A stretch of 43,661 bases of DNA. It comes from Hyphomicrobiales bacterium. GTDB lineage: Bacteria > Pseudomonadota > Alphaproteobacteria > Rhizobiales > Aestuariivirgaceae. Positions within the stretch are counted from its first letter, which is position 1; the number at the start of each line of letters is the position of its first letter. Shown here one piece after another: positions 27,527 to 32,837 of this stretch. The stretch covers positions 1-43,661 of the forward strand of contig JALVSR010000042.1 of the NCBI GenBank assembly GCA_027024225.1. Reading direction: 5' to 3'. A program made the translations under genes and the position numbers. Below the pieces are notes generated by a model. It saw nothing but the letters and a program-made list of their open reading frames with translations, did not search any database and was not told the DNA's origin.

Positions 27527-28348
27527 ATGATCACGACCAATCCATTCGCCGGGCTTGCCGAATATGGCATTACGCCGGGCATGATGATGGCGTTCGTCAT
27601 CCTGATGGTTCTGGCGGTGGTGGTGGGCACTGCCCTCGATGTGCTCCACAAGAAGAGCCACAAGTACTTCTTCGAGCATGAGGAGCGGATGAAGAAGCTG
27701 GCCACGCGCGAGCTGAGCTCGGCGGAAAAGACCAGCATGCTGATTCAGACCATCACCAGCGAGGTGCTGACCTCGTCCGAGTTCCACAACCCGAAGCGCC
27801 GCCTCGCGCATCTGCTGAAGATGTACGGCTTCGTGCTGTTCGTTCTGTCCAGCGCCGTGCTCATCTTTGCTTATCCGACCACGGCTGATGCGCCCTTCTG
27901 GGCCTTCCTGTGGCACCTGGGTGCCATCATGGTGGCCATTGGCGGCTACTGGTTCTTCTTCAGCCTGCGCGTGGATGTGCAGTCGGAAGGCAACAAGTGG
28001 TGGAACCTGAAGAAGCGCGACCTGTTCATCGTTTCTCTGCTGGCCACCGTCACCTTCGGCCTGCTGTGGTCGCTGTTTGGCACGGTGGTGCTGTTTGCCC
28101 TGTTCATCATTTCCACCGCGGTACTGTTCGGCTCCGTCTACTGGTCGAAGTTCGCGCACATGTTCTTCAAGCCGGCTGCGGCCTACCAGAAGCGCAAGCT
28201 GATGGCCGACGGTTCGCGCGAGAACCTGCCGCCGTTCTACAAGCGTGCGGAAGTGCTGGATCAGTCCACCATGGACCTGGTGCGCGACATTCCGAAGGAT
28301 CAGAAGTTCGGCCTGTGCATCATGAAGGACGAACCCAAGCATTACTGA
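27527..28348 (+). CDS. aprM: AprM, putative membrane anchor of adenylylsulfate reductase
   Basis: Multi-TM protein directly upstream of aprBA: MITTNPFAGLAEYGITPGMMMAFVILMVLAVVVGTALDVLHKKSHKYFFEH... Confidence 0.85.
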   Translation: MITTNPFAGLAEYGITPGMMMAFVILMVLAVVVGTALDVLHKKSHKYFFEHEERMKKLATRELSSAEKTSMLIQTITSEVLTSSEFHNPKRRLAHLLKMYGFVLFVLSSAVLIFAYPTTADAPFWAFLWHLGAIMVAIGGYWFFFSLRVDVQSEGNKWWNLKKRDLFIVSLLATVTFGLLWSLFGTVVLFALFIISTAVLFGSVYWSKFAHMFFKPAAAYQKRKLMADGSRENLPPFYKRAEVLDQSTMDLVRDIPKDQKFGLCIMKDEPKHY

Positions 28349-28398: not shown

Positions 28399-28878
28399 AT
28401 GCCCACTTTTGTCTACATGACCCGGTGCGACGGATGCGGCTACTGCGTCGACATCTGTCCTTCCGACATCATGCACATCGACGACACCTGGCGTCGCGCC
28501 TACAACCTCGAGCCGGACATGTGCTGGGAGTGCTATTCCTGCGTGAAGGCCTGCCCGATGCATGCCATCGACGTGCGCGGTTATGCCGACTTCTGCCCGC
28601 TGGGCCACGCCGTGCGCGTGCACCGCGACGAGGAGGAAGGCATCATCGCCTGGCGCATCAAGTTCCGCAGCGGCCGCATCAAGGACCTGGTGGCGCCGAT
28701 CACCACCAAGCCGTGGGGCAAGTTCATTCCGAACCTCAGGGAGGTGGCGCCGCCCACGGACGAGCAGCGCAAGAGCCAGCTCTTGTTCAATGAACCGAAG
28801 TACATCCGGCTGGACGACGGCGACCTCTACACGCTGGAGTCACAGGGTCTGAAGATGAGGCAGGGAGTTTACTACTGA
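28399..28878 (+). CDS. aprB: Adenylylsulfate reductase beta subunit (two [4Fe-4S])
   Basis: MPTFVYMTRCDGCGYCVDICPSDIMHID...NLEPDMCWECYSCVKACPMHAIDVRGYADF. Confidence 0.97.
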   Translation: MPTFVYMTRCDGCGYCVDICPSDIMHIDDTWRRAYNLEPDMCWECYSCVKACPMHAIDVRGYADFCPLGHAVRVHRDEEEGIIAWRIKFRSGRIKDLVAPITTKPWGKFIPNLREVAPPTDEQRKSQLLFNEPKYIRLDDGDLYTLESQGLKMRQGVYY

Positions 28879-30764
28879 TGGCTTACAAGACTATCGTCGT
28901 CGACAATATCGACATCCTGGTGGTTGGCGCTGGTCTGAGCGGCACGGGTGCTGCGTGGGAGGCGCGCTACTGGGGGCAGGACAAGAAGATCGTCATCGCC
29001 GAGAAGGCGAACATCTATCGCTCCGGCGCCGTGGCCATGGGCCTGTACGCGATCAACTGCTACATGGGCACGCGCTTCGGCGAGAACAACCCCGAGGACC
29101 ACGTGCGCTACGCCCGTAACGACCTGATGGGGATGGTGCGCGAGGACCTTCTGTTCGACATGGCGCGCCACGTGGATTCGGCGGTGCACCAGTTCGAGGA
29201 GTGGGGCCTGCCGCTGATGCGCGACCCGGAGACGGGCAAGTATCAGCGCGAGGGCAAGTGGCAGATCATGATCCACGGCGAATCCTACAAGCCCATCGTG
29301 GCCATGGCCGCCATCAAGTCCGCCGACAAGGTGTACAACCGCATCTGCGTCACGCACCTGCTGATGGACGAGGCGAAGGAGAACCGCGTGGCGGGCGCCG
29401 TGGGCTTCAACGTTCGCACCGGTGACTTCTATGTCTTCAAGTCCAAGACGGTGATCGTGGCCGCCGGCGGCGCATCCATGATCTACAAGCCGCGCTCCAC
29501 TGGCGAAGGTGCGGGCCGCGTGTGGTATGCCCCGTGGTCGTCCGGCTCCGCCTATGGTCTGCTGATTCAGGCGGGCGCGAAGATGACCCAGATGGAAAAC
29601 CGCATCGTGCTGGCCCGCTTCAAGGACGGCTACGGTCCGGTGGGCGCCTACTTCCTGCACCTGAAGACCTACACCCAGAACGCCTATGGTGAGGAATACG
29701 AGTCCCACTGGTACGACGAGCTGAAGAAGATGGTGGGCGAGTATATCGACCACCACCCGGTGCCCACCTGCCTGCGCAACCACGCGCTCATCCGCGAGGT
29801 GCTGGCCGGCCGTGGTCCCATCCACATGGTCACCATGCACTCCTTCCAGGATCCGCACCTGGAGGAGGTGGGCTGGCACAACTTCCTCGGCATGACCGTC
29901 GGCCAGGCGGTGCTGTGGGCGGCCAACGACGTCGATCCGAAGTGCGAGAACCCGGAGCTGACCACCTCCGAGCCGTACGTGATGGGCTCGCACGCCACGG
30001 GTTGCGGCGCCTGGGTGTCCGGCCCGGAAGACGTCTCTCCGCCGGAATACTTCTGGGGCTACAACCGCATGACGACGGTGCATGGCCTGTTCGGCGCCGG
30101 TGACGCCGCCGGCGGCACGCCGCATGCCTTCTCGTCGGGCTCCTTCACCGAGGGTCGCCTGGCCGCGAAGGCCGCCTGCCAGTATATCGACGATGGCAAG
30201 GCCGAGGGCATCGTGGTTTCCGAGCGGCAGATCGAGGAGCTCCGCGAGAAGATCTACAAGCCGCTGGAAAATTACAAGATCTGGCGCAACGAGATCGTTG
30301 CCGGCACGGTCAGCCCGACGGTGCTGCTGCCCAAGCAGGGCCTCATCCGCATGCAGAAGATCATGGACGAATACTGCGGCGGCGTGAGCATGCAGTACAT
30401 GACCAACGAGAGGCTGCTGAACATCGGTCTGATGAAGCTGCAGCTGCTGAAGGAAGACATGGAGATGCTGGCGGCAGCCGACCTGCACGAGCTGCTGCGC
30501 TGTTGGGAGCTGCACCACCGCGTGCTGACCTCCGAGGCGGTGATGCATCACACGCTCTTCCGCAAGGAGACGCGTTGGCCGGGTTACTACTACCGTGGCG
30601 ACCACCTCTACCTCGACGACGAGAACTGGCACGTTCTCACCGTGTCTCGCCGCGATCCGAAGACCGGCGAGTACACCATGGAAAAGGCACCGCTGTATCA
30701 TATCGTCGGCGATGTCGAGGAAGAGTACGAGAAGAAGAAAAAGGCCAAGAAGAAAGCTTCTTGA
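28878..30764 (+). CDS. aprA: Adenylylsulfate reductase alpha subunit (FAD)
   Basis: DILVVGAGLSGTGAAWEARYWG; VAMGLYAINCYMGTRFGENNPEDHVRYARNDLMG; start overlaps the aprB stop (TGATG). Confidence 0.97.
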   Translation: MAYKTIVVDNIDILVVGAGLSGTGAAWEARYWGQDKKIVIAEKANIYRSGAVAMGLYAINCYMGTRFGENNPEDHVRYARNDLMGMVREDLLFDMARHVDSAVHQFEEWGLPLMRDPETGKYQREGKWQIMIHGESYKPIVAMAAIKSADKVYNRICVTHLLMDEAKENRVAGAVGFNVRTGDFYVFKSKTVIVAAGGASMIYKPRSTGEGAGRVWYAPWSSGSAYGLLIQAGAKMTQMENRIVLARFKDGYGPVGAYFLHLKTYTQNAYGEEYESHWYDELKKMVGEYIDHHPVPTCLRNHALIREVLAGRGPIHMVTMHSFQDPHLEEVGWHNFLGMTVGQAVLWAANDVDPKCENPELTTSEPYVMGSHATGCGAWVSGPEDVSPPEYFWGYNRMTTVHGLFGAGDAAGGTPHAFSSGSFTEGRLAAKAACQYIDDGKAEGIVVSERQIEELREKIYKPLENYKIWRNEIVAGTVSPTVLLPKQGLIRMQKIMDEYCGGVSMQYMTNERLLNIGLMKLQLLKEDMEMLAAADLHELLRCWELHHRVLTSEAVMHHTLFRKETRWPGYYYRGDHLYLDDENWHVLTVSRRDPKTGEYTMEKAPLYHIVGDVEEEYEKKKKAKKKAS

Positions 30765-30844: not shown

Positions 30845-31264
30845 ATGGCCGACAATGGCAATGTTCGCGATTTGGCCGAAGACATGGTCAGGGCCTCGGA
30901 TCAGGCCGCGCCGACCAACATTACCCAGCTGACGGATGAAGAAATCCGCGAAGTGGCCGACAAGTACTGGGCGCATCTGATCAAGGCCTCCAATGACGGA
31001 AACTATGGCGAATTTGCGCGCTATCTGGCCCGTGAATTCGCTCAGGCCATGAACATGGTGGCCTTCAATCACCAGTATCACAATAGCGAATTGGCCAGGA
31101 ATCTCTCTGAAGATTTCGACTTTCTCGGCATCATTCGCCGCGGCGAGCATGTGACGGTCCTTTACCGCCAGCGATGCAAGGTGAAGGAGGGAGAATGGCT
31201 GGGCCGCCTGGTGCTGGGATTTGAAGACGGCAGGATCAAGATTTTCGGCGCTTCCTTCTTTTGA
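30845..31264 (+). CDS. Uncharacterised 139-aa protein, possibly NTF2/SnoaL-like fold
   Basis: Intact ORF directly downstream of aprA in the same orientation, preceded by a GGGAGTG-type RBS. Helix-rich N-terminal half followed by an alternating-strand C-terminal half (HVTVLYRQRCKVKEGEWLGRLVLGFEDGRIKIFGASFF). Confidence 0.8.
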   Translation: MADNGNVRDLAEDMVRASDQAAPTNITQLTDEEIREVADKYWAHLIKASNDGNYGEFARYLAREFAQAMNMVAFNHQYHNSELARNLSEDFDFLGIIRRGEHVTVLYRQRCKVKEGEWLGRLVLGFEDGRIKIFGASFF

Positions 31265-31294: not shown

Positions 31295-31822
31295 ATGAGT
31301 GAAAACGAAAAGGCCGAGAAGATTTCATACGGCAAGCTGGTAGAGCTGAAATATCGCCTGCTGGACGCCAAGACCGGCCAGGTGTTGAGCGCCGTTGAAT
31401 TTCCGCTCAACTACATTCACGGGCAGAACGAAATTCTCAGTTCCGAGATCATGAAGGAGCTCGAAGGCAAGCGTGCCGGCGAGGTCATCGAGCTGGAGCT
31501 GAATGGCGATGACCTGTTTGGTCCGCGCGATGAGAGCCTGGTCATCATCGAGCGACCGGAAAACGTGCCTGAGGAATACCGCAAGCCCGGCCTGCAGATC
31601 ATGATGCAGAACGAAAAGGGCGATGTGCGTCCCTTTTACGTCACCTACATGGATGACGAGAAGATCATCATAGACGGCAACAGTCCCTTTTCCGGGCGCG
31701 CGCTCAAGTTCGAGCTCGAGATCTTGGGAGTGCGCGAGCCGACCGAAGAGGAAATCGAAGCGGGCGGTATTGTACAGCCCGAGATGGTGAACCTGCCCGG
31801 CAAGAAGGTGCCGTTGAGCTGA
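31295..31822 (+). CDS. SlyD/FKBP-type peptidyl-prolyl isomerase-like protein
   Basis: SlyD-pattern segments GKLVELKYRLLDAKTGQVL, FPLNYIHGQNEILSSEIMKELEGKRAGE and YMDDEKIIIDGNSPFSGRALKFELEILGVREPTEEEIEAGG. No His-rich tail. Confidence 0.8.
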   Translation: MSENEKAEKISYGKLVELKYRLLDAKTGQVLSAVEFPLNYIHGQNEILSSEIMKELEGKRAGEVIELELNGDDLFGPRDESLVIIERPENVPEEYRKPGLQIMMQNEKGDVRPFYVTYMDDEKIIIDGNSPFSGRALKFELEILGVREPTEEEIEAGGIVQPEMVNLPGKKVPLS

Positions 31823-31965
31823 TGTGAGGTTTTTGGGCTGCCATGCCAGGCGGCCAGGCATGAAGTGGGCGATCGGTGCAAAATTTGCCGCTAGCCCGTT
31901 GCAAGCAACCGGCCTTGGCTGGTAAGAGAAACTGGGAAACAAACCACAAGCTGGAGGGAAAGCAC

Positions 31966-32124
31966 ATGGGTAAGCCTGCTGATCCGGCCACCGTGCCGCC
32001 GTGCAAGACTCGTTTCTATGAAACGCGTCCTCTGCCAAAAAACGAGAAGGGCTTCGTGGGCTTCGAAACCATCTGGGAGCCCTGGCACAAGGAAGCCGAG
32101 TATACCGTTCCGGAACGTCCGTAA
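31966..32124 (+). CDS. 52-aa microprotein, uncharacterised
   Basis: MGKPADPATVPPCKTRFYETRPLPKNEKGFVGFETIWEPWHKEAEYTVPERP with strong RBS ctGGAGGGaaagcacATG; a terminator follows its stop. Confidence 0.7.
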   Translation: MGKPADPATVPPCKTRFYETRPLPKNEKGFVGFETIWEPWHKEAEYTVPERP

Positions 32125-32151
32125 TACACATCGGTTCGGGCGATCATGAAG

Positions 32152-32175
32152 AGGCCATCCCGTCGGGGGTGGCCT
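32152..32175 (+). terminator. Rho-independent terminator after the 52-aa ORF
   Basis: AGGCCATCC-cgtcgg-GGGTGGCCT followed by TTT. Confidence 0.75.
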
Positions 32176-32393
32176 TTTCAATTTGGGCGTTGGGTCCCTC
32201 TGCCCGAATTGCGAACACGACTGTTCAAATGGGCGTCATGTGCTGGAATGGCGATTGCCATTTCGCTTTTCGACATATAGTATTCGCTGCATGTATATCC
32301 GGCCTTGCGGCTGCGGCTCGCTGGAGGGGAGAGCCTGCGCATTTCACGGCGCAAGCCGGGCCGTCAGCCCATCATGTCGAGGGAGGAATGAAA

Positions 32394-32837
32394 ATGAAAA
32401 TTCGTGAGTTTCTGGATGGTCAGCAGTCCACCGTCGTGGCCTGTCGCCGGGCAGACACCTTGCAGAGCGCGGCCATGCTGCTGCATTCCAATCATATCGG
32501 CGCCATGCCGGTGCTGGACGTGAATGGCAAGCTGGTGGGAATCCTGTCCGAACGAGATATCGTCTCCGCTCTGTCTCAACGGCCGCAGCAGCTGATGCAG
32601 CTCAAGGTGGGCGATGTCATGTCCTCTCCGCCCGTTACATGCAACGAGAACAAGGACATGTGTGACGCCATGCGGGTGATGCTGAGCCACAAGTTCCGCC
32701 ACCTGCCCATCGTGAGCGATAGCGGCGAGCTGAGGGGTATGCTGTCCATTCGCGACTGTCTGGCCATGCAACTGCGGGACAAGGAGCTGGAGGCCAACGT
32801 GCTGCGCGACAGCTTCATCGCCGCGCGTTACAGCTGA
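32394..32837 (+). CDS. Two-CBS-domain protein
   Basis: MKIREFLDGQQSTVVACRRADTLQSAAMLLHSNHIGAMPVLDVNGKLVGILSERDIVSAL...MSSPPVTCNENKDMCDAMRVMLSHKFRHLPIVSDSGELRGMLSIRDCLAM; GGGAGG RBS. Confidence 0.93.
   Translation: MKIREFLDGQQSTVVACRRADTLQSAAMLLHSNHIGAMPVLDVNGKLVGILSERDIVSALSQRPQQLMQLKVGDVMSSPPVTCNENKDMCDAMRVMLSHKFRHLPIVSDSGELRGMLSIRDCLAMQLRDKELEANVLRDSFIAARYS

Follow-up and report, generated by a model that had tools for sequence, protein, structure and literature searches.

In the 43,661-nucleotide stretch of DNA analysed here (the window), sp52, a gene for a 52-amino-acid microprotein, codes for protein and evolves under purifying selection. It belongs specifically to AprM-type apr loci and is inherited with orf139 and a SlyD-like FKBP; its product is probably a small component devoted to the AprM-type enzyme system. 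One main route by which sulfur bacteria oxidise sulfite is catalysed by APS reductase; Allochromatium vinosum has other routes as well (PMC3779200). The apr cluster and the sp52 gene occupy the following positions in the window:

27527–28348, forward strand: aprM, membrane protein (synteny; weak match to NF038018, E = 6e-8)
28399–28878, forward strand: aprB, APS reductase beta subunit with two [4Fe-4S] clusters (phmmer against A. fulgidus AprB 1jnr_B, 1e-36)
28878–30764, forward strand: aprA, APS reductase alpha subunit (TIGR02061, 1050 bits)
30845–31264, forward strand: orf139, NTF2-like protein of unknown function (AlphaFold model; same genomes as sp52)
31295–31822, forward strand: fkbp, SlyD-like FKBP-type protein (phmmer against SlyD structures, E = 4e-18; syntenic)
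31953–31958, forward strand: Shine-Dalgarno sequence GGAGGG (window sequence; equivalent sites in sp52 relatives)
31966–32124, forward strand: sp52, 52-amino-acid microprotein gene (conserved frame, start and stop; dN far below dS)
32147–32180, forward strand: intrinsic terminator of sp52 (15-bp stem and U-tract)

Translation of positions 31966–32121 gave exactly the 52 residues reported in the earlier note, followed by a TAA stop at 32122, and the open reading frame, its sequence and its coordinates (31966–32124) were thus exact. The strong ribosome-binding site claimed for sp52 is present as GGAGGG with a 7-nt spacer (31959–31965) before the ATG at 31966, and relatives have equivalent sites. 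A terminator of its own was likewise found, consisting of a perfect 15-bp hairpin (G-U pairs allowed; dG −30.3 kcal/mol, z = −5.1 versus shuffles) and a U-tract at 32147–32180. Relatives begin with the same MG, MS or MA start, with a Shine-Dalgarno sequence just 5' of it, and several carry in-frame stops a short way 5' of the start. The 30-residue N-terminal extension of an alternative 82-amino-acid version starting at 31876 is not conserved, because of these close upstream stops. The shared starting methionine and the upstream stops rule out the longer version, in agreement with the earlier preference for the 52-residue start.

To define the family, 84,980 species genomes were scanned, which yielded 390 relatives, 80 of which were kept. 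Homologues span the alpha-, beta- and gammaproteobacteria; their sources include records labelled Hyphomicrobiales and other alphaproteobacteria, Burkholderiales and other betaproteobacteria, Thioalkalivibrio isolates, a Solemya gill symbiont, a Thiobacillus MAG and one MAG placed in the Deltaproteobacteria by its record label alone. Kept relatives with an intact start are 52–57 residues long and retain the C-terminal motif TRQMxPNEKGFVGYETIWEPFQKEAEYxTPKxP. In an alignment of 73 members, 22 positions were conserved at a level of at least 90%, T20, G29, G32, T35, K42 and Y46 were invariant, and the C-terminus read YxTPKxP. Among six sequences from the same genus, dN was 0.02–0.19 and dS 0.28–1.02 over 15 pairwise comparisons, and the majority of differences fell at third codon positions. 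The window sequence and that of locus L029 differed at 1, 2 and 19 sites by codon position, 17 of the changes being synonymous and 5 non-synonymous. The check proposed earlier, conservation of the frame with synonymous-biased substitution, thus came out in favour of a translated gene across proteobacterial classes, and neither loss of the frame nor frame-breaking indels occurred in the relatives in which they were looked for. Searches with sp52 found no match in the Pfam and NCBIfam family libraries, in the PDB at the sequence level, or in plasmids by tblastn. Marginal matches (L021–L028, E 0.002–0.1) were set aside as chance, since several are interrupted by stops and none is close to an apr gene.

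We found that the distribution of sp52 follows that of the AprM-type APS reductase and not that of apr as a whole. Two genome sets were used: 60 relatives, of which 28 had aprA at over 500 bits, and a phylum-wide set of 399 genomes, of which 42 had aprA; three genomes were common to both (G000, G003 and G059), two of them aprM-positive (G000 and G059). sp52 was present in 19 of 20 relatives with both aprA and aprM versus 1 of 8 with aprA but without aprM (Fisher p 5e-5), and in 9 of 9 aprM-positive versus 1 of 33 aprM-negative apr genomes of the phylum sample (Fisher p 2e-8), although these p values overstate independence because genomes share ancestry. It was found in none of the 357 phylum-sample genomes without aprA, and the two samples combined gave sp52 in 26 of 27 distinct genomes with both aprA and aprM. 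In both AprM-negative carriers (G043 and G170), the contigs are cut within the apr cluster, and in G010, aprM lies on a contig that ends there. G037 has an aprM-aprB-aprA contig without orf139, fkbp or sp52, and neither sp52 nor orf139 was found in its draft genome; AprMBA may therefore be able to work without sp52. The same division runs through the genus of the window: six genomes (G000, G002, G004, G006, G007 and G008) carry AprM and sp52, whereas four (G001, G003, G005 and G009) have another APS reductase and neither gene, AprA of G003 and G005 being 46–47% identical to that of the window. The available text of PMC2211403 keeps lineage I of the Apr of sulfur-oxidizing bacteria (SOB), with aprM, apart from lineage II, with qmo, and we matched our two apr groups to these lineages by aprM presence and AprA identity. 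As a separate observation, all six AprM-less aprBA loci examined (L126, L127, L128, L129, L130 and L131) encode near aprA a protein of 310–352 amino acids with a PF03692 CxxCxxCC domain (putative Zn/Fe-chelating), which may be the corresponding accessory dedicated to the other type of APS reductase.

Gene order was also informative. In 78 of 80 loci, sp52 has a member of the aprM-aprB-aprA-orf139-fkbp cluster as its neighbour; the two unlinked loci (L067 and L089) come from genomes with aprM elsewhere. The gene lies downstream of fkbp on the same strand in 58 loci, is convergent in 16, and is upstream of aprM on the same strand in 3; it sits between orf139 and fkbp in L013 and L014 and is divergent from aprM in L122 and L123. 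The linkage thus survives rearrangement, which argues for a functional bond and against sp52 being a passive operon neighbour. In a gammaproteobacterial MAG (L076) and the Solemya velesiana symbiont (L091), sp52 lies 3 kb from fkbp, and the gap holds the same four opposite-strand genes, encoding proteins of about 350, 215–220, 115 and 103 amino acids. In several close relatives of the window, sp52 is followed by a gene for a protein with two CBS domains (32394–32837 in the window); since this gene is mostly missing at this place elsewhere, it is probably outside the sp52 system.

Two companion genes go with sp52. In the 60-genome sample, orf139 was restricted to AprM-type apr genomes and present in 19 of the 20 AprM-positive apr relatives, the exception (G011) having a fragmented apr cluster. 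It matched no Pfam or NCBIfam family; its AlphaFold model (pLDDT 80.5, pTM 0.76) places four strands on helices, with weak fold matches to NTF2-like proteins, and 29 of the protein's residues are invariant, among them those of IRRG and GEWLGR motifs. The FKBP, scored at apr loci, has 39 invariant columns across 19 relatives. It resembles the FKBP-type metallochaperone SlyD in sequence, a trait of this neighbour and not of sp52, but differs from it in showing no His/Cys-rich metal-binding tail. AprM shows a weak match to the membrane portion of QmoC (NF038018 positions 153–357, E 6e-8, far under the curated cut-off), has no homologue in the PDB, and is described in the available text of PMC3779200 as without similarity to known domains. 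Across 58 AprM sequences, four histidines (H41, H95, H211 and H272) are conserved; together with the QmoC-like match they make a heme or quinone role worth testing.

Next, the properties of the sp52 protein were considered. The 76 complete members have a median pI of 9.0, a GRAVY of −1.25 and no hydrophobic segment. The single Cys noted earlier is present in the window sp52 but is not a family trait, as it is missing in 71 of 76 complete members and present in 5; a role for it is contradicted by its absence outside the genus of the window, and a functional Cys was rejected on this lack of conservation. His is missing in 30 of the 76, and an electron-transfer signature in the form of conserved Cys/His cofactor ligands was not found among these members. 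Lacking redox ligands and a hydrophobic segment, sp52 is unlikely to be an electron carrier or to sit in the membrane. The predicted model (pLDDT 77, pTM 0.40) consists of a two-stranded beta-hairpin (residues 18–22 and 33–37) and extended arms, with no globular core. For a protein whose model lacks a core, conservation this strong is most readily accounted for by a binding partner, and the model suggests that the conserved positions could form a partner-binding surface. Foldseek gave no significant match for the model; AprB (3gyx_B) appeared only at E = 5, and with an hhalign probability of 0.1, the idea that sp52 is a homologue or duplicate of the AprB tail was rejected.

Overall, sp52 is best read as a peptide without redox function, either a subunit or an assembly factor of AprMBA, that would act with the NTF2-like protein and the SlyD-like FKBP. 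The earlier note had suggested a partner role with AprBA or AprM; such a role gains strong, if indirect, support from the linkage and from co-occurrence with AprM-type and not AprM-less apr. AprBA would be the most likely partner, perhaps at its junction with AprM. In the reading we favour, at about even odds, sp52 would serve AprMBA as a peptide subunit, soluble, extended, basic and rich in proline, that would clamp onto AprBA, possibly at the site of its docking to the membrane partner AprM, and would stabilise the membrane-associated complex passing sulfite-oxidation electrons into the membrane. Here we infer the binding itself, AprBA as the partner, and the docking or stabilising action. 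Evolutionary-distance correlations with sp52 at equal column number were 0.73 for AprA, 0.72 for FKBP, 0.66 for AprB, 0.62 for orf139 and 0.56 for AprM, and thus pointed to no one partner. Choosing AprA as the partner from distance matrices (partial r 0.44) was rejected, because AprA is not separable from FKBP at equal variable-column numbers.

That an FKBP and an NTF2-like protein are encoded next to sp52 suggests a module for assembly as well as for structure, and the main alternative, somewhat less probable but to be taken seriously, is that sp52 is an assembly or maturation factor. In that case sp52, orf139 and FKBP would be a chaperone set maturing AprBA, through FAD or [4Fe-4S] insertion or AprM insertion, and sp52 would stay outside the final enzyme. 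This is consistent with the SlyD-like FKBP within the same conserved cluster, the shared genome distribution of orf139 and sp52, the frequent placement of sp52 in its own transcription orientation, and a distance correlation with FKBP equal to that with AprA. However, SlyD-type factors are usually broad-acting, whereas sp52 and orf139 occur only at AprM-type loci, and the AprM-less apr loci examined do without both. That sp52 is a small regulatory protein tuning APS reductase activity or expression, neither subunit nor assembly factor, appears improbable: a small, soluble, basic and often separately transcribed product would suit such a role, but the model has no DNA-binding fold, and an obligate tie to one enzyme type across classes with little presence-absence variation fits a core component better. 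That the frame is spurious, or that an untranslated but conserved RNA or leader was taken for a gene, is a negligible prospect. Although sp52 is short and has no family-library entry, its low dN relative to dS, third-position bias, conserved start, stop and ribosome-binding site, use of different stop codons, and conservation as a protein across proteobacterial classes, whichever strand the gene occupies relative to apr, all speak against it.

Returning to the subunit reading, we compared it with known systems. Small supernumerary subunits and microproteins of bacterial respiratory complexes are about 50 amino acids long and obligately tied to one enzyme. sp52 is like them in size and obligate association but differs in being soluble, with no transmembrane helix, and its binding is putative. 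The proposal also recalls QmoABC and QmoAB-HdrBC of the SRB-type APS reductase in involving a dedicated partner set joining AprBA to the membrane quinone pool; in contrast to these, sp52 has no redox ligands and is found with AprM-type apr, not the other type. For AprMBA of SOB Apr lineage I, the system with which, and almost only with which, sp52 is encoded, the available text of PMC2211403 and PMC3779200 names aprM as the sole conserved aprBA companion and does not mention sp52, orf139 or fkbp. We found no description of sp52 in the open-access literature; subscription papers, including the Meyer and Kuever 2007 gene-locus paper, may show the neighbouring genes. Alvin_1122, which by its locus tag lies beside aprA (Alvin_1121), appears in a transcriptome study (PMC11267869) as a regulated conserved hypothetical protein and could be any of the three companion genes.

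sp52 occurs in hundreds of sulfur bacteria, without an entry in the family libraries, and provides a sequence marker that separates the two APS reductase types in genomes and metagenomes. Tentatively, and with considerable doubt, the AprM-type APS reductase may be a larger machine in which AprM, AprB and AprA are joined by three more obligate components: the NTF2-like protein, the SlyD-like FKBP and a 52-amino-acid peptide that would lock AprBA onto AprM and let sulfite-derived electrons into the membrane. For the step in which the AprM-type enzyme passes its electrons to the membrane, sp52 and the two other dedicated genes offer concrete, deletable candidates.
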